Shown here piece after piece: positions 8,422 through 54,240 of a stretch of DNA of 64,000 nucleotides. The position numbers were made by a program, and so were the translations under genes. Source of the stretch: Sphingomonas sp. (GTDB lineage: Bacteria; Pseudomonadota; Alphaproteobacteria; Sphingomonadales; Sphingomonadaceae); contig NZ_JAQZBC010000007.1 in the NCBI RefSeq assembly GCF_029239295.1, forward strand, positions 62,001-126,000, given 5' to 3'. The notes below the pieces were generated by a model that did no database searches, had not been told where the DNA came from, and was given only the letters and a program-made list of their open reading frames with translations. How positions within the stretch are numbered: the stretch's first letter is position 1; each line of letters opens with the position of its first letter.

Positions 8422-10251
8422 TTACGCCTTCAGCATCCGCTCCGTCACCATGCGTTCCAGGATGGTCAGCGGCATCGCGCCGTCGAGCAGCACCGCGTGG
8501 AATTTGCGCGGGTCGAAGGCGGCGCCCTGCTTCTGCTTCACCGCGTCGCGCAGGCGCACCCAGACGGTGTGGCCGATCTTGTAGCTGCACGCCTGGCCCG
8601 GCCAGACGGTGTAGCGATCGATCTCATTCTGGCTGCGGCCGCGCGCGATGCCGGTGGTGGCGATGAAGTAATCGGTCGCCTTCTCGCGGCTCCAGCGCTT
8701 GTGGTGCATGCCCGAGTCCACGACCAGCCGCGTCGCACGGAACAGCAGCGACTGGAGATACCCGACCTGGCCGAGCGGATCGCCCTCGTACATGCCCATC
8801 TCATCCGCGAGCTGTTCGGTATAAAGCGCCCACCCTTCGGTATAGCCGCTGAACCCGCCGCGGCGGCGGATGAGCGGGATGTCCTGCGATTCGAGCGCAG
8901 TCATCACCTGCAGGTGATGGCCCGGGACTGCCTCGTGATAGGACAAGGTGGCGAGGCCGAACTTCGGGCGATCGAAGCTGTCGCGCAGGTTGATGTAATA
9001 GATGCCCGGGCGCGAGCCATCGAGCGAGGCGTTCTGGTAATAGCCGCCCGGCGCGCCCGCCTCGATCGACTTGGGCACGCGGCGAACCTCGACCGGCGCC
9101 TTGGGGATGAAGGAGAATTGCTCGGGCAGGCGCTTCTGCATCGCGACGACCTGCGCGCTGAGCTGCGCAACCAGCTGCTCCTTGCCGGCATCGGTGTTGG
9201 GATAGACCTGATCCGGGCGCTTGTTGAGCGCGACCAGCCGCTCGCCGACGCTGCCCTGCGTCATGCCCTGCGCCTTCAGGATGCCGTCGATCCGGTTGCT
9301 GATCTCCGCCACCTGGGCGAGGCCGAGGCGATGGACTTCCTCGCCGGACATGGCGACCGTCGTCGCGGCCTCGACCGCGGCGGCGTAATAAGCCTCGCCG
9401 TCCGGCAGACGCCAAGCGCCCGCATCATGGACCGCACGACCGCGCAGCTCGGTGACCAGCGCGCGCTGACGATCGAGCGCCGGGAACACCTGCTCGTTCA
9501 TGATCTTGGTCGCTTCGGCGACGCGCGCGTCGGGGAGGTTCGCGGCCTTCAGCTTGCCCGCCAGTGCCGTCACCGGGACGGTGGCGCTCGCCGGCTGATC
9601 GCGCAAACCGCCCATCAGCTTCAGCGTGGTATCGAGGACGTAATCGGGCGCGAAGACGCCGCGCGCGGCATCCGCGCGCTGGCGCTCCGTATCCTGGTCG
9701 ATCGCGGTGGCGAAGGCAGCGACGCGGGCGACGTAGGCGTCGGCGTCGGCAGCATCCTTGATGCGATGCTGCGCGTCGAGGAAATCGGGTACCTCGCGAT
9801 AGGCGCCGGTCAGATGCGTGAGGACGTAAGGCGTGAAACGGCCCATGCTGGCGCCGTAGGTGAACTTCTCGCCACCCGCGACGCTGCGCTGGAGCTGGTA
9901 GGAGACGACCTCATAATCGAGCCGGGCGGCGGGGGAGAGCGAGGCGGGGTTGATCTTGCGCAGCGCGGCCAGCTCGCGCTTCGCCCGCGCAAGATCCTTC
10001 TGCGCGCCAGCGGCCGAGCCATCGTTGAGCTGCGACTTCAGCGCCGCGCGCTCGCCAGTGTCGAGGCCGAGTGCGGTGGCGCCCTCAGGGTTCTCGCCGA
10101 TCCGCTCATAGAAGAAACGGTCGAGCAGCGTGCGCAGCTGCTGGTCGTTGGCGCCGGCGGCAGCCGTCGCGGTCGCCTTTTGCGCGGCGGCGGGAACGGC
10201 AGTCGCCAGTGCGGCGGCGCCGGTGCTGCCGAGGAAGGTGCGACGATCCAT
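8422..10251 (-). CDS. Tat-exported DUF885 family protein (putative metallopeptidase-like)
   Basis: A 609-residue exported protein. The ATG at 10251 gives a twin-arginine signal, MDRRTFLGSTGAAA, ending at about VPAAAQ, and has an AGGAG ribosome-binding site; the open frame extends further upstream but without such features. The C-terminal half contains HEAVPGHH (residues 439-446), the hallmark of the DUF885 family. Family members resemble zinc metallopeptidases, but the substrate is unknown. It is followed upstream on the same strand by another exported hydrolase, so a periplasmic degradation role is plausible. Length is normal for the family. Confidence 0.85.
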   Translation of the reverse strand: MDRRTFLGSTGAAALATAVPAAAQKATATAAAGANDQQLRTLLDRFFYERIGENPEGATALGLDTGERAALKSQLNDGSAAGAQKDLARAKRELAALRKINPASLSPAARLDYEVVSYQLQRSVAGGEKFTYGASMGRFTPYVLTHLTGAYREVPDFLDAQHRIKDAADADAYVARVAAFATAIDQDTERQRADAARGVFAPDYVLDTTLKLMGGLRDQPASATVPVTALAGKLKAANLPDARVAEATKIMNEQVFPALDRQRALVTELRGRAVHDAGAWRLPDGEAYYAAAVEAATTVAMSGEEVHRLGLAQVAEISNRIDGILKAQGMTQGSVGERLVALNKRPDQVYPNTDAGKEQLVAQLSAQVVAMQKRLPEQFSFIPKAPVEVRRVPKSIEAGAPGGYYQNASLDGSRPGIYYINLRDSFDRPKFGLATLSYHEAVPGHHLQVMTALESQDIPLIRRRGGFSGYTEGWALYTEQLADEMGMYEGDPLGQVGYLQSLLFRATRLVVDSGMHHKRWSREKATDYFIATTGIARGRSQNEIDRYTVWPGQACSYKIGHTVWVRLRDAVKQKQGAAFDPRKFHAVLLDGAMPLTILERMVTERMLKA

Positions 10252-27737: not shown

Positions 27738-27930
27738 GGCGCGGCCGCGAACGGTTCCCGGAGACGGGATGAAAAGGGAAGTCGGGAAGGGCATCAGCCC
27801 CATGCCCGCGCTGCCCCCGCAACTGTGATCGGCGAGTGCCGTCCATCCGCGCCACTGGAGCCTGAGGCTTCCGGGAAGGCCGGGCGGCACGCTGACCCGA
27901 GAGCCAGGAGACCTGCCGGTCGCACGTCGA
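27738..27930 (+). promoter_or_regulatory. Cobalamin (AdoCbl) riboswitch
   Basis: The 342-base gap before btuB contains the conserved B12 box GAGCCAGGAGACCTGCC at 27901-27917, preceded by the CGGTTCCCGGAGACGGGATGAAAAGGGAA entry region in two blocks around 27750-27780, the CGCAACTGTGATCGG core near 27817 and a GAGCCTGAGG/CTTCCGGG arm. This is the order found in cobalamin riboswitches. It should shut down translation or transcription of the btu operon when B12 is plentiful. Boundaries are approximate. Confidence 0.93.
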
Positions 27931-28055
27931 TCCATCGCGCGGACGGGGTGTGCCGGGCGGACGAGGCCGAAACCCTCGAGCGAACGACAAGAGGGATCGG
28001 CTGACGGGCGGTGCATGGAGGCGCCGGCCGCAGCCCTTTTGTTGGGGCAATAACA

Positions 28056-29903
28056 ATGAAGACCATCCACTGGCTGGCGGCATCCGCCACCCTGATCGCG
28101 GCGCCCGCGCTCGCGCAGGACGCATCGCCGCGCGGCGACATCGTGGTGACGGCCAGCGGCGTGCCGCAGGATGTCGATACCACCGGCCAGGCGGTGACCA
28201 TCATCGACCGCGAGACGATCGAACAGCGGCAGACGGTGGTGCTCAGCGACCTGTTGCAGACCACGCCGGGGGTGACCGTGACTCGCAACGGCGGCGTCGG
28301 CACCGTCAACTACGTGCGCATCCGCGGTGCAGAGGCGGATCAGACGCTGACGCTGATCGATGGCGTGCGCGTCAACGATCCGTCGTCGCCGGGCGGCGCA
28401 TTCGATTTCGCCAATCTGCTCACTGCCTCGGTGGAGCGGGTCGAGGTGGTGCGCGGGCCCAATTCGGTGCCATGGGGCAGCCAGGCAATCGGCGGCGTGG
28501 TCAACGTGATCACCCAGGCGCCGACGCAGCAGCTGCGCGCACGCGGCAATGTTGAATATGGCGCGATGGACACGGTGTTCGCCAGCGGCGGCATTTCGGG
28601 CGGGAGCGGGATCGTTTCGGGCTCGCTCACCGGCGGTTACCTGCGCACCGATGGGATCTCCGCCTATGATCGCGGGACCGAGCGTGACGGCTATCGCCAA
28701 TATGGCGCCAGCGGCCGCGTGGAAGTGGCGTTCGCGCCCAACATCCGCCTCGACCTGCGTGGTTATTGGGCCGACAGCCGCACGGAGCTGGATGGCTTTC
28801 CCGCGCCCGCCTTCGCCTTTGCCGACACCCGCGAATATTCGACCGCGCAGGAACTGTACGGCTATGCCGGGCTGAACGCGGATTTCCTCGACGGCCGGTT
28901 CCGCAACGTCCTGGCGTTCCAGATCGCCGACATCGACCGCGACAATTACGATCGTGATGTCGGGGCCGCCCCGCTGTTCCTGTCGCGCGGGCGCAGCGAA
29001 CGCTACACCTACAAGGGCGACCTGCAGGCGAACGACCAGATCCGCGTCGTGCTCGGCGCCGAGCATGAGACGACGCGTCTGAACGACGGCACCGACCGGT
29101 TCAGCCGGGGCACCACCAGCTTCTGGGGTGAAGTGATCCTGACCCCGCTCGCCGGGCTCGCCGTCACTGGCGGTGTGCGCCACGACGATGACGATGCCTT
29201 TGGCGGGCGCACCACCTTTGCCGCCAACGCCGCTTATACGCTGCCGACCGGCACCACGCTGCGCGGGAGTTATGCCGAAGGGTTCAAGGCGCCGACGCTG
29301 TACCAGCTGTACGCGCCCTTCTACGGCACGCCGACGCTGGATGCGGAGACCGCCAGGAGCTGGGACGCAGGGGTGGAACAGCGGCTGATCGACGACCGGC
29401 TGGTCGCCAGCGCGACCTATTTCAACCGCCACACGCGCAACCAGATCGATTTCGACGCGCTGACCTTCACCTACAGCAACATCGCGCGGACCAACGCGGA
29501 AGGCGTGGAAATCGGGCTGCTGATGCGTCCGGTCGATCGCTTCACGATCAACGCATCCTATAGCCATATCGACAGCGAGAACCGCAGTGCCGGCTTCGTC
29601 GGCAACGATCTGGCGCGCCGGCCCGAGGACAGCGTCAGCGTGTCGGCGGATTACCGCTTCCCCTTCGGCCTCGCGCTGGGCGCAACGGTGCTGACGGTGG
29701 GCGACAGTTTCGACAATGCGGCCAATACCGTGCGGCTCGACGGCTATACGCTGACCAACCTGCGCGCCGAGCTGCCGTTGAATGACCGCTTGTCGATCTA
29801 TGGCCGGTTCGAGAATGTGTTCGACGCCGATTATCGCGTCGTGGCCAATTACGGCACGATCGGGCGCGCGGCCTATGGCGGTCTGCGCGTGAAACTGGAT
29901 TGA
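28056..29903 (+). CDS. btuB: TonB-dependent cobalamin receptor BtuB
   Basis: A 615-residue outer-membrane receptor. A signal peptide (MKTIHWLAASATLIAAPALAQ) precedes a TonB box DIVVTAS, a plug domain (about 45-150) and a 22-strand barrel ending in an aromatic-rich terminal strand (AYGGLRVKLD). Its size matches BtuB, and the upstream B12 riboswitch plus downstream BtuF/C/D make cobalamin the substrate with good confidence. ATG 28056 is preferred over one at 28011 because it starts the signal peptide. Confidence 0.92.
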   Translation: MKTIHWLAASATLIAAPALAQDASPRGDIVVTASGVPQDVDTTGQAVTIIDRETIEQRQTVVLSDLLQTTPGVTVTRNGGVGTVNYVRIRGAEADQTLTLIDGVRVNDPSSPGGAFDFANLLTASVERVEVVRGPNSVPWGSQAIGGVVNVITQAPTQQLRARGNVEYGAMDTVFASGGISGGSGIVSGSLTGGYLRTDGISAYDRGTERDGYRQYGASGRVEVAFAPNIRLDLRGYWADSRTELDGFPAPAFAFADTREYSTAQELYGYAGLNADFLDGRFRNVLAFQIADIDRDNYDRDVGAAPLFLSRGRSERYTYKGDLQANDQIRVVLGAEHETTRLNDGTDRFSRGTTSFWGEVILTPLAGLAVTGGVRHDDDDAFGGRTTFAANAAYTLPTGTTLRGSYAEGFKAPTLYQLYAPFYGTPTLDAETARSWDAGVEQRLIDDRLVASATYFNRHTRNQIDFDALTFTYSNIARTNAEGVEIGLLMRPVDRFTINASYSHIDSENRSAGFVGNDLARRPEDSVSVSADYRFPFGLALGATVLTVGDSFDNAANTVRLDGYTLTNLRAELPLNDRLSIYGRFENVFDADYRVVANYGTIGRAAYGGLRVKLD

Positions 29904-29982: not shown

Positions 29983-30804
29983 ATGCGGCTGGTCCTTCTC
30001 CTTGCGCTGTTGCTCGCCGGCTGCTCCGGCGGGGTGCCGACGCGTGAGGGGATGAGCCGGGGCGGGATCGTCTCGCTCAATCCCTGTGCCGATCAGTTGC
30101 TCTTGTCGCTGGTGCCGCCGCGACAGATCGCGGCGATCAGCCATTATTCGCACGATCCCCGCGCGACCTCGCTCCCGCTTGATGTGGCGCGGCGGTTCCG
30201 CGCCACGGCGGGCACGGCGGAGGAAGTGATTGCGCTGGCGCCGGATCTGGTGATCGCCAGCAGCTTCACGTCGCCCACCACTCGCGCGGCGTTCGACCGC
30301 GCGGGGCTTCGCACCTTGTACCTCGATTCGCCGACCACCATTGCGGCGAGCCGCGCACAGATCGCCGAAGTCGCCGCCGCGGTCGGCGCAGCGGATCGTG
30401 GCCACGCGCTCGACGCGCGGATTGCGCGGGCGCTGGCGCACAGCCGGGGTATTGGAAAGCCGCTCCCGACCTTGCTGTTCATCGGCGGTGACCTCGCCAA
30501 TGGCGACGGCACGCTGCTGCACGAGATGATGAGCCACGCCGGACTACGCGATGCCGCGGCCGATTACGGGCTGGCGATGACCGGCCGCCTGCCGATCGAG
30601 ACGATCGTTGCCGATCCCCCCGCGCTGATCCTGTCTCCCGACAACGGGGGGCGGACAGCAGAGACGCGCCGGCGCCTTCTCGCCGCGACCGGTGCACCGA
30701 CGCGCGAGGCGCCATTCCCCCGCGCGCTGGTTAACTGCGGCGGGCCGACCATTCCGGCGGCGCTTGAACGGCTCGCCGCGGTTCGCCGGAGCGCCGGTGC
30801 ATGA
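29983..30804 (+). CDS. btuF: Cobalamin ABC transporter substrate-binding lipoprotein BtuF
   Basis: A 273-residue periplasmic binding protein of the TroA/BtuF fold. The lipobox LLLAGCS places the lipid-attached cysteine at residue 14, so it is tethered to a membrane. SLNPCADQLLL and VIALAPDLVIAS are typical of the class. It delivers cobalamin from the periplasm to BtuCD. It overlaps btuC by ATGA. The assignment depends on the riboswitch and BtuB context; iron-chelate binding proteins look similar. Confidence 0.87.
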   Translation: MRLVLLLALLLAGCSGGVPTREGMSRGGIVSLNPCADQLLLSLVPPRQIAAISHYSHDPRATSLPLDVARRFRATAGTAEEVIALAPDLVIASSFTSPTTRAAFDRAGLRTLYLDSPTTIAASRAQIAEVAAAVGAADRGHALDARIARALAHSRGIGKPLPTLLFIGGDLANGDGTLLHEMMSHAGLRDAAADYGLAMTGRLPIETIVADPPALILSPDNGGRTAETRRRLLAATGAPTREAPFPRALVNCGGPTIPAALERLAAVRRSAGA

Positions 30805-31769
30805 GCCGCCTATCGCTTAATCTCGCGCTGGTGCTGCTGGTCACGCTGCTGTTCGCCGGCTCGCTGATGGCGGGCAAGGCATGGGTGCCGCTGGATGCCT
30901 GGTGGTCGAGCGATCCGCGCTGGATGATCATTGTCGAACTTCGGCTGCCGCGCGCGCTGCTGGCGCTGGTGCTGGGCGCGGTCCTTGGGCTGTCGGGCGC
31001 GGTGTTGCAGGGGTGGCTGCGCAATCCGCTGGCCGATCCGGGTGTGCTCGGCGTGTCTTCGGCAGCAGCATTGGGTGCTGTCGCTGCGCTGGTGCTCGGC
31101 GTGGGAAGCCAATGGGGAGTGTTTGCAGCGGCAATGGCGGCGGCGATCGGCGCAATGGCGCTGCTGGCGGCGCTGACATGGCGCGCGGAAAGCGCGGCGG
31201 CGTTCGTGCTGGCCGGGTCGGTGCTCGCCAGCCTCGCCGCCGCGCTCACCGCCTTTCTCATTTCGATTGCGCCCAATCCCTATGTCGTCGCCGAAGTGCT
31301 CGACTGGCTGATGGGCGCGCTGACTGATCGCAGCTTTGCAGATCTGGGCCATGCCGCGCCGTTCATGCTGGCCGGCGCGGTGCTGCTGCTCATCACCGGG
31401 CGCAGCCTTGATGCGTTGACCTTGGGCAGCGATGCGGCGCGGTCGCTCGGGGTCGACCTGCGGCGCTTGCAGGCGCTGGTCATCGCGGGAACCGGCCTCG
31501 CGGTCGGCGCCGGGGTGGCGGTGACCGGCGTGATCGGTTTCGTCGGGCTGGTCGTACCGCATCTGCTGCGCCCGCTGGTCGGCGCGCGTCCGTCGGCGCT
31601 GCTGGTGCCAAGTGCGCTGGGCGGCGCGGCGCTGGTGCTGGGCGCCGACACGCTATGCCGGCTGGTTCCCGGCGCTGGCGAGGTGCGGCTGGGTGTGGCG
31701 ATGGCGCTGATCGGCGCGCCCTTCTTCCTGGCGCTGCTGCTGGGTGAGCGGGGGCGATCATGGGGCTGA
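30801..31769 (+). CDS. btuC: Cobalamin ABC transporter permease BtuC (FecCD family)
   Basis: A 322-residue inner-membrane permease with about ten hydrophobic segments. LRLPRALLALVLGAVLGLSG, the conserved GNPLADPG-like segment (RNPLADPGVLGVSSAA) and GFVGLVVPHLLRPLVG are FecCD signatures. It pairs with BtuD. It starts in overlap with btuF and ends overlapping btuD by 10 bases, showing tight operon structure. Confidence 0.92.
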   Translation: MSRLSLNLALVLLVTLLFAGSLMAGKAWVPLDAWWSSDPRWMIIVELRLPRALLALVLGAVLGLSGAVLQGWLRNPLADPGVLGVSSAAALGAVAALVLGVGSQWGVFAAAMAAAIGAMALLAALTWRAESAAAFVLAGSVLASLAAALTAFLISIAPNPYVVAEVLDWLMGALTDRSFADLGHAAPFMLAGAVLLLITGRSLDALTLGSDAARSLGVDLRRLQALVIAGTGLAVGAGVAVTGVIGFVGLVVPHLLRPLVGARPSALLVPSALGGAALVLGADTLCRLVPGAGEVRLGVAMALIGAPFFLALLLGERGRSWG

Positions 31770-32512
31770 CGGCCGGCGGCCTATCCGTGAGCCTACGGGG
31801 ACGGCGCATCCTGCATGGGATCAACGCCACCTTTGCACCGGGGCGGGTCACCGTGGTGCTGGGCGCGAATGGCGCGGGCAAGAGCACGCTGCTGCGCGCC
31901 GCCGCGGCGCTGGTACCGTGCGCGGCGGGCAGCGTGACGATCGATGGTAGGGATGTCGCCGCCCTTTCGCCGCGCGAGCGGGCCTGCACGATCGGCTATC
32001 TGCCGCAGGATTCGGTCGTGCATTGGAACATGCGCGTGCGTGATCTGGTGGCGCTCGGCCGTCTGCCGCACGGCGATGGTGACGCGGGCGCAGTGGCCCG
32101 CGCGCTGGAGGCTACCCGCACAGCTGACCTTGGAGAGCGCGCGGTGCGCGATTTGTCGGGGGGCGAGCGGGCGCGCGTGCTGCTGGCGCGGGTGCTCGCC
32201 GGCGCGCCCCACTGGCTGCTGGCCGATGAACCGCTCGCGAGCCTCGATCCACTCCATCAGCTCGAAACGCTGGCGTTGCTGCGTGCGGCGGCGGCGGGGG
32301 GCATGGGCGTCGTGGTGGTGCTGCACGATCTGACCCAGGCGGCGGCCGTCGCCGATGACGTGCTGCTGCTGAAGGACGGTGCGGTGCTGGCGCACGGGCC
32401 GACCGATGTTGTGATGACTGCCGAGCATCTCGCCCAGGCCTATGGCGTAGCGGTGGAGGTGCTCGATCGCGCCGATGGGCGCCGGGTGATCGTGGCGACC
32501 AACACGCTCTGA
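31760..32512 (+). CDS. btuD: Cobalamin ABC transporter ATP-binding protein BtuD
   Basis: A 250-residue ABC ATPase. Walker A GANGAGKS (35-42), the DSVVHWNMRVRDLVALGR Q-loop region, signature LSGGERARVLLAR and Walker B LLADEPLASLD are intact. It energises the BtuC permease for B12 import. It ends 15 bases before the palindrome that precedes the metH genes, so the btu operon probably stops here or reads through into metH. Confidence 0.92.
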   Translation: MGLTAGGLSVSLRGRRILHGINATFAPGRVTVVLGANGAGKSTLLRAAAALVPCAAGSVTIDGRDVAALSPRERACTIGYLPQDSVVHWNMRVRDLVALGRLPHGDGDAGAVARALEATRTADLGERAVRDLSGGERARVLLARVLAGAPHWLLADEPLASLDPLHQLETLALLRAAAAGGMGVVVVLHDLTQAAAVADDVLLLKDGAVLAHGPTDVVMTAEHLAQAYGVAVEVLDRADGRRVIVATNTL

Positions 32513-32526
32513 CCACCTGGCTTGAA

Positions 32527-32548
32527 CATATAAAGATATCTTTATATG
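32527..32548. promoter_or_regulatory. 22-bp perfect palindrome upstream of metH (SahR-like operator)
   Basis: The half-site CATATAAAGAT is followed directly by its exact reverse complement ATCTTTATATG. A perfect 22-bp AT-rich palindrome in such GC-rich DNA is very unlikely by chance. ArsR-family regulators of the SahR type, which sense S-adenosylhomocysteine and control methionine-cycle genes, have been predicted to use operators of this AT-rich form; assignment to that regulator is inference from memory and context. The regulator gene is not in the window. Confidence 0.75.
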
Positions 32549-32557
32549 ATGCGCTTC

Positions 32558-33631
32558 ATGCCTAGCCACGCCCAATCTGCGCCCGATGGCGCCCGCGAAG
32601 CCCTGCTCGCTGCCGCGCGCGAACGTATCCTCGTCACGGACGGCGCATTCGGCACCGAGATCCAGAACTGGAAGCTGTCGGAGGCGGATTACGCCGGCAC
32701 GCTGGGGCTGTCGCACGATCAGAAGGGCAACAATGACATCCTCGCGCTGACCAAGCCGGAGGTGCCCGAATCGATTCACCGCGCCTATTTCGAGGCGGGC
32801 GCGGACATTGCCGAGACCAACACCTTTTCGGCCAATCGCATCAGCCAGGCCGATTACGGTGCCGAGAATCTGGTGCGCGAGATCAACGTCGAAAGCGCCG
32901 CGATGGCGCGCCGCATCGCCGACGAATTTGCTTCGCGTGATGGCCGCCGCCGCTTCGTCGCTGGGGCGATCGGCCCGACCAACAAGACGCTGTCGCTGTC
33001 GCCCGACGTCAACGATCCCGGCTTTCGCGAGATCGACTTCGATTATCTGAAGCAGGTCTATCGCGAACAGGCCGACGCCCTGATCGAGGGCGGGGCGGAC
33101 TTCATCCTGATCGAAACGGTGTTCGACACGCTGAACGCCAAGGCCGGCGTGATGGCGGCGCAGGAGGCCGGCGCCGCGATCGGGCGCGACGTGCCGATCA
33201 TGCTGTCGATGACGCTGACCGACCTGTCGGGCCGCAACCTGTCGGGTCACACGGTTGAGGCGTTCTGGCACGCCGTTCGCCATGCGAAGCCAGTGACGAT
33301 CGGGCTGAACTGCTCGTTCGGCGCGCAGCAGCTTCGTCCGCATGTGAAGACGCTGAGCGAGATCTGCGACACGCTGATCATGGTCTATCCCAACGCCGGG
33401 CTGCCCAACGAACTGGGCGCCTATGACGAGGCGCCGGAGACGACCGCCGGGCTGGTCAAGGAATGGGCCGACGCGGGCCAGGTCAATGTGCTGGGCGGCT
33501 GCTGCGGTTCGACGCCGGCGCATATCAACGCCATCGCCGATGCAGTGCGCGGGCTGTCGCCGCGGACGATCCCGGTGCCGCCGGTGCGCACGCGCCTCGC
33601 GGGGCTCGAGCCGTTCACCATGGCGGCCTAG
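32558..33631 (+). CDS. metH: Methionine synthase, homocysteine-binding module (split MetH, part 1)
   Basis: About 357 residues forming the homocysteine S-methyltransferase barrel of cobalamin-dependent methionine synthase. Zinc ligands are present in GLNCSFGAQ (Cys252) and GGCCGS (Cys315, Cys316), counted from ATG 32558. ATGs at 32546 and 32549 are in frame but lie within or against the palindrome, so 32558 is preferred; no clear ribosome-binding site is seen. It stops 87 bases before part 2. The break falls at the natural domain boundary after the first module, so it looks like a stable gene split, not a frameshift. Confidence 0.9.
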
Positions 33632-33718
33632 GCCGTCCTTTTCCGCCCGTTCGCCCGTGTCGGGGCGGGTCCGGGCGCGCGCGTCGACACGTCCAGTGCG
33701 AACGGAATTTCTGATACC

Positions 33719-36439
33719 ATGGCCTCTCAACCGACCTCCTCCACCCAGTTCGTCAACATCGGTGAGCGTACCAACGTCACGGGTTCCGCGGCGTTCAAGA
33801 AGCTGATCATGGCGGGCGACTATGACGCCGCCGTCACCGTCGCGCTCAACCAGGTCGAGAACGGCGCGCAGATCATCGACGTCAACATGGACGAAGGTCT
33901 GCTCGACGCGGTCGAGGCGATGACCACCTTCCTGAAGCGGATCGCCGCCGAACCCGACATCGCGCGAGTCCCCGTGATGATCGACAGCTCCAAATGGGAG
34001 GTGATCGAGGCCGGTCTGAAATGCGTGTCGGGCAAGCCGATCGTCAATTCGATCAGCATGAAGGAGGGCGAGGAGAAGTTCCTCGCCGAGGCCCGGAAGT
34101 GCATGGCCTATGGCGCCGCCGTCGTCGTCATGGCGTTCGACGAGGTCGGGCAGGCCGATACCGAGGATCGCAAGGTCGAGATCTGCCAGCGCGCCTACAA
34201 GCTGCTGACCGGCATCGGCTTCCCGCCCGAGGACATCATCTTCGATCCCAACGTGTTTGCGGTGGCGACCGGGATCGACGAGCACAACAATTACGGCGTT
34301 GATTTCATCAATGCGGTGAAGCGGATCAAGGCGAGCTGCCCGCATGTCCATTTCTCGGGCGGGTTGTCGAACCTGTCGTTCAGCTTCCGCGGTAACGAGC
34401 CGGTGCGCCGCGCGATGCATTCGGTGTTCCTCTACCATGCGATTCCCGCGGGCCTCGACATGGCAATCGTCAACGCCGGTCAGCTCGACGTCTATGACCA
34501 GATCGATCCGGAACTGCGCGAGGCGTGCGAGGATGTGATCCTCAACCGTCCGGCGCGGCGCGAAGATGAGACACCGACCGAGCGGCTGATCGCGATTGCC
34601 GAGCGGTTCCGCGGGCAGAAGGGCGCCGTCGCCGACGACACCGCCGCACTGGAATGGCGCAGCTGGCCGGTCGCCAAGCGGCTGGAACACGCGCTGGTCC
34701 GTGGCATCGACGCCTTCGTGGTCGAGGATACCGAAGAAGCGCGGCAGCAGGCCACCAAGCCGATCGAGGTGATCGAAGGCCCGTTGATGGACGGCATGAA
34801 CGTCGTCGGCGACCTGTTCGGTTCGGGCAAGATGTTCCTGCCGCAGGTGGTGAAATCCGCGCGCGTGATGAAGAAGGCGGTGGCACACCTGTTGCCGTAC
34901 ATCGAGGCATCGAAGGAGCCGGGGGCCAAGGGCAAGGGCAAGATCGTGCTCGCGACCGTGAAGGGCGATGTCCACGATATCGGCAAGAACATCGTCGGCG
35001 TGGTGCTCCAGTGCAACGGCTTCGAGATCGTCGATCTGGGCGTCATGGTGCCTTGGACCCGCATTCTCGAGGCTGCGGTGGAGCATGATGCCGACATGAT
35101 CGGCCTGTCGGGCCTCATCACCCCCTCGCTCGACGAGATGGTGACGGTGGCGGAGGAGATGCAGCGCGCGGGCATGACGATGCCGCTGCTGATCGGCGGC
35201 GCGACGACGAGCCGCGTCCACACCGCACTGAGGATCGATCCGGCGTACAAGGGCGCGGTGGTCCATGTGCTCGACGCGAGCCGGGCGGTCGGCGTGTGCA
35301 CGTCGCTGGTGTCCGAGACGCAATCGATCGAGTTCGCCGCGAAGACCAAGGCCGATTACGAGGACGTGCGCGTCAAACGCGCCAACGCCAGCGGATCCAA
35401 CCTGGTCCCGCTGGAAAAGGCGCGCGCCAACGGCTTCGTCGCCGATATGGCGCTGAAGCCTGGCGCGCCGCTCCAGCCCGGCCTCCACCGCTTTGACGAT
35501 TGGGATCTGGCCGACCTGCGCGAGCTGATCGACTGGACGCCATTCTTCCGTTCGTGGGAACTCGCCGGCAATTTTCCGGCTATCCTCGATGACGCGATCG
35601 TCGGCGAAAGCGCGCGGTCGCTCTACGCCGATGCGCAGGCAATGCTCGACACCATTATTGCGGAAAAGTGGCTCACCGCGCGCGGCGTCGTGGGGCTGTG
35701 GCCGTGCCATCGGGGCCAGGGACCATGGGGCGACGACGTGTTCGTCCAGCATCGCCATTCGGACGACCATCGCACGCCCGACGGCGGCAGCGTGCCCGAG
35801 CATATCCGCGTGCCCGATCTCGACCGCCGGAACGAGGACAGCCGCCGGCTTTGCTTCCTGCGCCAGCAGATCGCGAAGCGCGAGGGGCGGGCCAATATGT
35901 GCCTTGCCGATTTCATCGATACGCACGGCGACTGGATGGGCGGCTTCGCGGTGGCGATCCACGGCATCGATCCGCACCTCGCCCGGTTCAAGGCCGACGT
36001 CGACGATTACAACGACATCCTGCTGAAGGCGCTGGCCGATCGCTTCGCCGAGGCGTTTGCCGAGCGGCTGCACCAGCATGTCCGCACGACTTTATGGGGC
36101 TATGCGCCCGACGAGCAGCTGACCAACGAGGCGCTGATCCGTGAGCAATATCGCGGCATCCGCCCGGCACCGGGCTATCCCGCCTGCCCCGATCACACGT
36201 TGAAGCCCGAATTGTTCGAGATGCTGGCCGATGAGGCCGGCGACGTCGCGGGAATCACGCTCACCGAAAGTATGGCGATGCTGCCGACCGCGGCAGTCTC
36301 CGGCTTCTACTTCGGGCATCCGCAGGCGGCGTATTTCGGTGTCGCGCAGATCGGCCAGGATCAGGTGGCCGATTATGCGACGCGTCGTGGCCGCCCGAAG
36401 GACGAGGTCGAACGCTGGTTGCGCCCTAACCTCAGCTAG
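33719..36439 (+). CDS. metH: Methionine synthase, folate/B12/activation modules (split MetH, part 2)
   Basis: A 906-residue protein with the remaining MetH modules in order: the methyltetrahydrofolate-binding barrel from about residue 5 ([13 protein letters not shown]), the cap and B12-binding domain with Asp417-x-His419-x-x-Gly422 (GDVHDIGKN), and the AdoMet-dependent activation domain ending with [12 protein letters not shown]. With part 1 it methylates homocysteine to methionine using methyl-B12. The activation module shows that it can be reactivated by flavodoxin and AdoMet. Placing it behind B12 import genes makes physiological sense. Confidence 0.95.
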
Positions 36440-54060: not shown

Positions 54061-54094
54061 TTACCGCGCCGCTCGGGGCGCGTAGAACGGCCAC

Positions 54095-54187
54095 ATCCCC
54101 GGGGGACCGCTGACGGCGGTTGAGAGGGGGGCACGAGCCCCCGACCCGCTGAACCTGATCCGGTTGACACCGGCGGAGGGAGGGAGC
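54095..54187 (+). promoter_or_regulatory. TPP riboswitch (THI element)
   Basis: The conserved thi-box core is present in order: a GGTTGAGAGGGGG arm (54118-54130), CCGACCCGCTGAACCTGATC (54141-54160), CGGTTGACACCGGCGGAGGGA (54161-54181, given as a stretch of the 3' arm). This pattern binds thiamine pyrophosphate and represses thiC. It lies about 60 bases before the thiC start. Ends are approximate. Confidence 0.93.
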
Positions 54188-54240
54188 GGCAAGCCACTAC
54201 CGGCAATCCGTCTTTCACTCTTCGACCATGAGGAGAGTGA

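Follow-up and report, generated by a model that had tools for sequence, protein, structure and literature searches.

A predicted SahR operator at the promoter of metH behind a cobalamin riboswitch-led btu-like operon in Sphingomonas

In the 64,000-nucleotide stretch of Sphingomonas sp. DNA analysed here, which we refer to as the window, a perfect 22-bp palindrome, CATATAAAGATATCTTTATATG, lies at positions 32527-32548. Judged by its length, its palindromy and the regulon genes that share it, this palindrome is very probably the operator of the regulator SahR, through which the metH promoter would stay blocked until S-adenosylhomocysteine (SAH) accumulates. The arrangement that is new, as read from the DNA, is that metH in the clade of the window sits behind a riboswitch-led btu-like operon and has a putative SahR-type operator of its own. 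Amongst the literature matches listed, which were limited to openly accessible main texts, there was no report of SahR binding in Sphingomonas and none of metH behind btu genes.

The palindrome and its copies at methionine genes

Re-reading the window confirmed the sequence and coordinates of the palindrome as given by an earlier note, with the correction that its second half is the reverse complement of the first and not, as worded there, its "exact complement". The note had called it very AT-rich within GC-rich DNA, and it is 82% AT in a window that is 66.7% GC. It is the longest perfect palindrome in the window and the only one of more than 18 bp. The window holds 8 perfect palindromes of at least 14 bp, and the other seven, of 14-18 bp, do not exceed 44% AT; the second longest is the perfect 18-bp CATCACCTGCAGGTGATG at 8902-8919. 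As 48 of 200 dinucleotide shuffles of the window contained a perfect palindrome of at least 20 bp and 18 contained one of at least 22 bp, whereas none of the 200 contained one of at least 20 bp with more than 70% AT, length by itself is not decisive, but length together with composition is. A search with the 22-mer, allowing up to 3 mismatches, gave a single match in the window and none in any of 100 shuffles. The palindrome begins 14 bp after the stop codon of a btuD-like gene (32512) and includes a conserved 20-bp core, ATATAAAGATATCTTTATAT, at 32528-32547; as a predicted operator (32527-32548, no strand) it has the length of about 20 bp that is expected of a SahR site.

Further copies were found at methionine genes of the same genome. 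We scanned its 3.47 Mb with the 16-bp core ATAAAGATATCTTTAT and with the 20-mer ATATAAAGATATCTTTATAT, taking each sequence backwards as the control. With up to 3 mismatches, the 16-mer matched 6 places (1 for the control) and the 20-mer 5 (0 for the control). The five 20-mer sites are those of metH, ahcY (G000:C10), sahR-metF (G000:C35), metK (G000:C11) and mesX-mesD (G000:C12), and the Pfam families encoded at the sites are HTH_5 with Methyltransf_11, MTHFR, S-AdoMet synthetase, AdoHcyase, MesX and Meth_synt_2. The SAM-cycle genes sahR, ahcY, metH, metF and metK of one genome thus share the palindrome, the fifth site being that of mesX-mesD. The earlier note had expected copies near ahcY, metF, metK or an ArsR-type gene and had named their absence from methionine genes as evidence against its reading; copies at all of these were found, together with that at mesX-mesD, and 5/5 sites are at methionine genes. 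The sixth 16-mer match (G000:C18:20091, 2 mismatches) dropped out of the 20-mer search, where it exceeds the limit of 3 mismatches. Its position is within a minus-strand ORF of 221 aa and reaches the start of another ORF, of 139 aa; no methionine gene was seen there, and we treated it as a chance match, as the single backwards-control match of the 16-mer search allows.

The site is widely conserved amongst relatives. We searched 61 genomes, comprising that of the window, 36 of the genus and 24 of the order, and found the 16-bp core with at most 1 mismatch in 60 of them (backwards control, 1/61). In five clade genomes (that of the window, IC-11, Ag1, S. mucosissima and S. dokdonensis), all 24 of the 24 matches to the 20-mer with up to 3 mismatches are at metH, sahR-metF, ahcY, metK or mesX. 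A 20-mer site with at most 2 mismatches precedes sahR in 100/100 analysed loci (from 106, the other six lacking a sahR match in the stretch) and mesX in 10/10. Before ahcY, sites were present in 27/27 loci with at most 4 mismatches and in 23/27 with at most 2 (27 of 30 loci were analysed, 2 being without the N-terminus and 1 having a short upstream region). Sites before metK are often degenerate, with at most 4 mismatches in 26/30 loci, at most 2 in 12/30 and more than 4 in 4/30. Where metH1 lies behind btu genes the site is exact in 6/8 loci, the other two being Croceibacterium loci without a good site. The backwards control with up to 4 mismatches gave 1/100 for sahR, 0/27 for ahcY, 0/30 for metK, 0/10 for mesX and 0/8 for metH1, and a second, made-up control gave 0 in every gene group.

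Placement of metH behind btu-like genes

In the window, metH is split into two ORFs (32558-36439) with an 87-bp gap between them: part 1, with the homocysteine S-methyltransferase domain (32558-33631, plus strand, ATG 32558 being the preferred start), and part 2, whose domain families are those for pterin binding, B12 binding and activation (33719-36439, plus strand). A two-part metH has already been reported for Sphingomonas koreensis, which likewise has mesX-mesD alongside it in one genome (PMC7857596). The gene run upstream, also on the plus strand, is headed by a cobalamin riboswitch aptamer (27748-27922; RF00174, 92.1 bits). The run comprises a btuB-like TonB-dependent receptor (28011-29903, from a mechanical ORF start) whose best NCBIfam match is the B12 receptor TIGR01779 (317.6 bits, cut-off 599.7), a btuF-like binding protein (29983-30804) and a btuC-like permease (30801-31769), both named from gene order, and a btuD-like ABC ATPase (31760-32512), named from context, with heme, F420-0 and corrinoid ATPases as its best NCBIfam matches, all below cut-off. 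This upstream operon probably serves B12 uptake, its genes being named from their order, from the riboswitch and from weak matches to families. Elsewhere in the window there is a TPP riboswitch aptamer (54090-54198; RF00059, 68.9 bits).

The ordinary order in Sphingomonas is sahR-metF-metH1-metH2, with the operator before sahR. The named metH loci were the best 80 of 368, and 74 of these lie outside the window clade and Croceibacterium; sahR and metF are upstream of metH in 70 of the 74, the other 4 being incomplete, and in none of these 70 ordinary loci from the best 80 of 368 did the 300 bp upstream of metH1 contain a site, even when 5 mismatches were allowed. Because 9 of 11 order-level loci also have sahR and metF beside metH (one has metF only and one is incomplete), the sahR-metF-metH order is probably ancestral. 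A record titled Arthrobacter sp. TPD3018 (L124) has a typical Sphingomonas sahR-metF-metH locus that groups with S. aquatilis, and is probably mislabelled or contaminated.

The window clade departs from this common order, in which metH is served by the operator before sahR-metF-metH. Its metH1-metH2 follow btu-like genes and an exact operator in the genome of the window, G001, IC-11, Ag1, S. mucosissima and S. dokdonensis, this last apparently being the same genome as G001. In the genome of the window and four named clade genomes, sahR-metF is at a separate place with an operator of its own, and the cobalamin riboswitch heads the btu-like run in the window and the four named clade loci. The arrangement may have arisen by a move of metH or by its replacement with a copy acquired through transfer. 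Similarly to the run in the window, cobalamin riboswitches precede btuB-type genes in Sphingomonas haloaromaticamans, whose MetH is B12-dependent and is not accompanied by MetE; the accessible part of that report describes three riboswitch loci and names no metH behind them (PMC6970198).

The btu-metH order is also present in Croceibacterium ferulae and C. mercuriale (L117, L135, L278, L279). A quick tree without bootstrap, from which 9 of 93 loci were excluded as incomplete, joins the Croceibacterium MetH to that of the window clade (SH-aLRT 99), amongst Sphingomonas rows and away from the order-level relatives, which suggests horizontal transfer in one direction or the other. In the two Croceibacterium genomes no site was found with 3 or fewer mismatches. 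They do encode a SahR of 55-56% identity, and degenerate look-alikes of the palindrome occur in the sahR-metF gap of both species and, in C. mercuriale, also ahead of metH; as sahR is kept and such look-alikes are present, the SahR motif may have drifted in this genus. Taxon-specific substitutions are known to occur in SahR motifs (PMC5343134).

Promoter geometry at metH and at the other targets

A consensus scan of 32300-32800 found TTGAAC-N17-TATGAT at 32522-32550, where 0.1 matches were expected; a second match has the same -10. In this predicted promoter (plus strand) the -35, TTGAAC, occupies 32522-32527 and the -10, TATGAT, occupies 32545-32550, the 17-bp spacer being filled by the operator. 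TTGA is found at this place in 5/5 distinct clade sequences, the six clade metH rows counting as five because L050 (G001) and L112 share one sequence, and the -10 bases read TATGCT (L109, L110, L112) or TATGCA (L111) in relatives. Zymomonas belongs to the same order as Sphingomonas. Its mapped promoters have the form TTGNNN, 17 bp, TANNNN and a 6-bp discriminator, and leaderless cases make up 119 of its 2,675 start-gene pairs (PMC7566282). Applied to metH, this spacing places the predicted transcription start at 32557 on the plus strand, one base before ATG 32558.

As the earlier note had pointed out, the palindrome overlaps the first possible start codons of metH part 1. In-frame ATGs are located at 32546, formed by the last three bases of the palindrome, at 32549 and at 32558. 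Of these, the one that closes the palindrome does not share the metH reading frame in S. mucosissima, and ATG 32558 is kept in 6/6 clade loci (5 distinct sequences). Because of this conservation and the predicted promoter, the note's preference for a start at 32558 is supported, and the metH mRNA, with its predicted start at about 32557, is probably translated near-leaderless from this codon. The note had also taken the overlap to imply a direct block of transcription or translation initiation; a transcriptional block is favoured, whereas a translational one is less likely since the predicted mRNA begins downstream of the palindrome.

Given possible read-through from the upstream genes, the element at 32522-32550 may not be the sole promoter of metH. 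Of the alternatives to the operator acting at this promoter, the one that survives best has it chiefly as a roadblock: most metH transcription would come from polymerase running on out of the riboswitch-led btu genes, and SahR would halt that polymerase. The btu-like genes and metH are indeed co-directional, the operator begins 14 bp after the btuD stop, a scan of 32300-32800 gave no terminator-like site (G+C-rich hairpin plus T run), and the riboswitch heads the run here and in the four named clade loci. We nevertheless consider this improbable, as the operator is bracketed by a promoter-like pair, and read-through alone under the riboswitch would lower metH expression when B12 is plentiful, which is ill-suited to a B12-dependent enzyme. 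The roles of roadblock and of repression at metH's own promoter can coexist.

The geometry at the other targets was read from distinct rows with up to 4 mismatches (sahR, 91 of 100; ahcY, 27; metK, 26 of 30; mesX, 10; metH1, 5 of 8). Leaving aside 11 order-level sahR rows, 80 near-relative rows remain, of which 76 have a TTGAC that starts 8 bp before the operator and 4 have one that starts 7 bp before it; the start codon comes 8 to 13 nt after the operator in 80/80, and the gap between operator and start contains a Shine-Dalgarno-like string in 3/80. Amongst the 11 order-level relatives TTGAC at -8 was found in 0, and 25 to 83 nt separate the site from the start codon. The TTGA of metH begins 6 bp before the operator in 5/5 rows, 2 bp closer than in most sahR promoters and unlike the 8 bp (76/80) or 7 bp (4/80) found there; that metH simply captured a sahR promoter is accordingly unsupported. 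At ahcY, TTG directly follows the operator in 17/27 rows, and at metK 19/26 rows have a -10-like TA(G/A)(G/A) in the 22 bp that precede the site, a count without a control. At mesX, TTGAC comes after the operator, starting at a distance of 5 bp in 9/10 rows and of 6 bp in the remaining one (L253). Most of these placements fit steric repression, while that at mesX would allow activation too.

The mesX-mesD locus has a further element. In 10/10 loci (L010:4290-4512, L249-L258), the operator and the TTGAC 5-6 bp downstream are followed by a cobalamin riboswitch before the gene; mesX was found in 10 of the 61 genomes searched. MesX-MesD is a folate-independent methionine synthase, and the main text of the report describing it does not contain the word riboswitch (PMC7857596).

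The candidate regulator and the proposed switch

The candidate SahR is encoded at L008:5597-6580 on the minus strand, with the operator 9 nt before its start and metF as the next gene downstream. The 327-aa product has an ArsR-type HTH_5 domain at residues 13-56 (42.5 bits), a C-terminal Methyltransf_11 fold at 154-250 (79.6 bits) that may bind SAM or SAH, a single cysteine and a DIGTGTG motif that is invariant in 9/9 aligned proteins; relatives were present in 30/30 genomes searched. This gene therefore unites an ArsR-type HTH, an operator at its own promoter and methionine-cycle neighbours. The SahR-type operator that the earlier note had proposed gains support from the agreement of this predicted protein and of the gene set with the published regulon. 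Leyn et al. (2014) describe the alphaproteobacterial SahR motif as a 20-bp palindrome and the regulon core as sahR, ahcY, metH, metH2, metF and metK, with metE and metE2 in some genomes, and give a SahR regulon for 7/7 Sphingomonadales (PMC4239095). The sites found here resemble those operators in their 20-bp palindrome and gene set, within an order that the study includes. The SahR proteins of Desulfovibrio and Ensifer aridi are likewise ArsR-type, with predicted sites before sahR, ahcY, metH and metK, and have bhmT as an extra target where the genome of the window has mesX-mesD (PMC8877191). In E. aridi, sahR expression is highest in a sahR deletion, from which the authors infer autoregulation; SAH as the effector is taken from work on Desulfovibrio, for which they cite Novichkov 2014, and on a repressor role they go no further than speculation (PMC8877191).

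It is very unlikely that another methionine-cycle regulator, whether MetJ, MetR or an arsenic-type ArsR, binds the palindrome. The genome does contain six PF01022 matches, sahR included, so other ArsR-type proteins exist, but sahR is the only one of the six near any of the five sites, and a site precedes sahR in 100/100 loci. MetJ boxes are tandem AGACGTCT, which are absent from the palindrome. With its single cysteine, the candidate protein is a poor fit to a cysteine-based arsenic or metal sensor. In the accessible part of the regulon study, a MetJ or MetR regulon is given for no Sphingomonadales (PMC4239095). Even less credible is that the palindrome is an RNA or transcription feature, such as a hairpin or terminator that closes the btu operon, or a switch that controls translation at the metH start. 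The RNA could form an A-U rich hairpin of 9 pairs with a 4-base loop there, only 14 bp after the btuD stop, but its fold z-score is -1.18 with 27 of 200 shuffles folding equally well, terminator-like sites were absent from 32300-32800, no Rfam family matched the palindrome at gathering threshold, and the same palindrome is variously placed relative to promoter-like elements of unlinked genes, which fits DNA binding.

With the palindrome read as a SahR operator, we infer SahR binding, SAH as the effector, repression and the start point. A SahR dimer would sit between the -35 TTGAAC and the -10 TATGAT of metH and shut out RNA polymerase. Upon accumulation of SAH, SahR would release the operator and metH would be transcribed from about 32557 and translated near-leaderless from ATG 32558. 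Co-induction of metH with ahcY, sahR-metF, metK and mesX-mesD would then recycle homocysteine to methionine and SAM.

More tentatively, and as one possibility that we do not favour, metH may have brought no operator along to its place behind the btu genes, since none precedes metH in 70/70 ordinary loci, and may there have gained a new promoter-operator with the SahR site in the spacer. It would then receive two inputs, SAH at its own promoter and B12 through read-through that SahR can roadblock; mesX-mesD would have both inputs in the other order, and SahR might activate there.

These predictions link a palindrome that had no annotation with a named regulator whose regulon would comprise five operons, and they indicate the likely start codon of metH, with a geometry, an operator in the -35/-10 spacer and a near-leaderless start, that is readable from sequence. 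The mechanism would be ordinary, a SahR switch of known type, and the evolutionary interest is modest, lying in the placement of metH behind btu genes with its own operator. This placement offers a clean case of a gene whose neighbours have changed and which would still belong to its regulon by way of an operator of its own.
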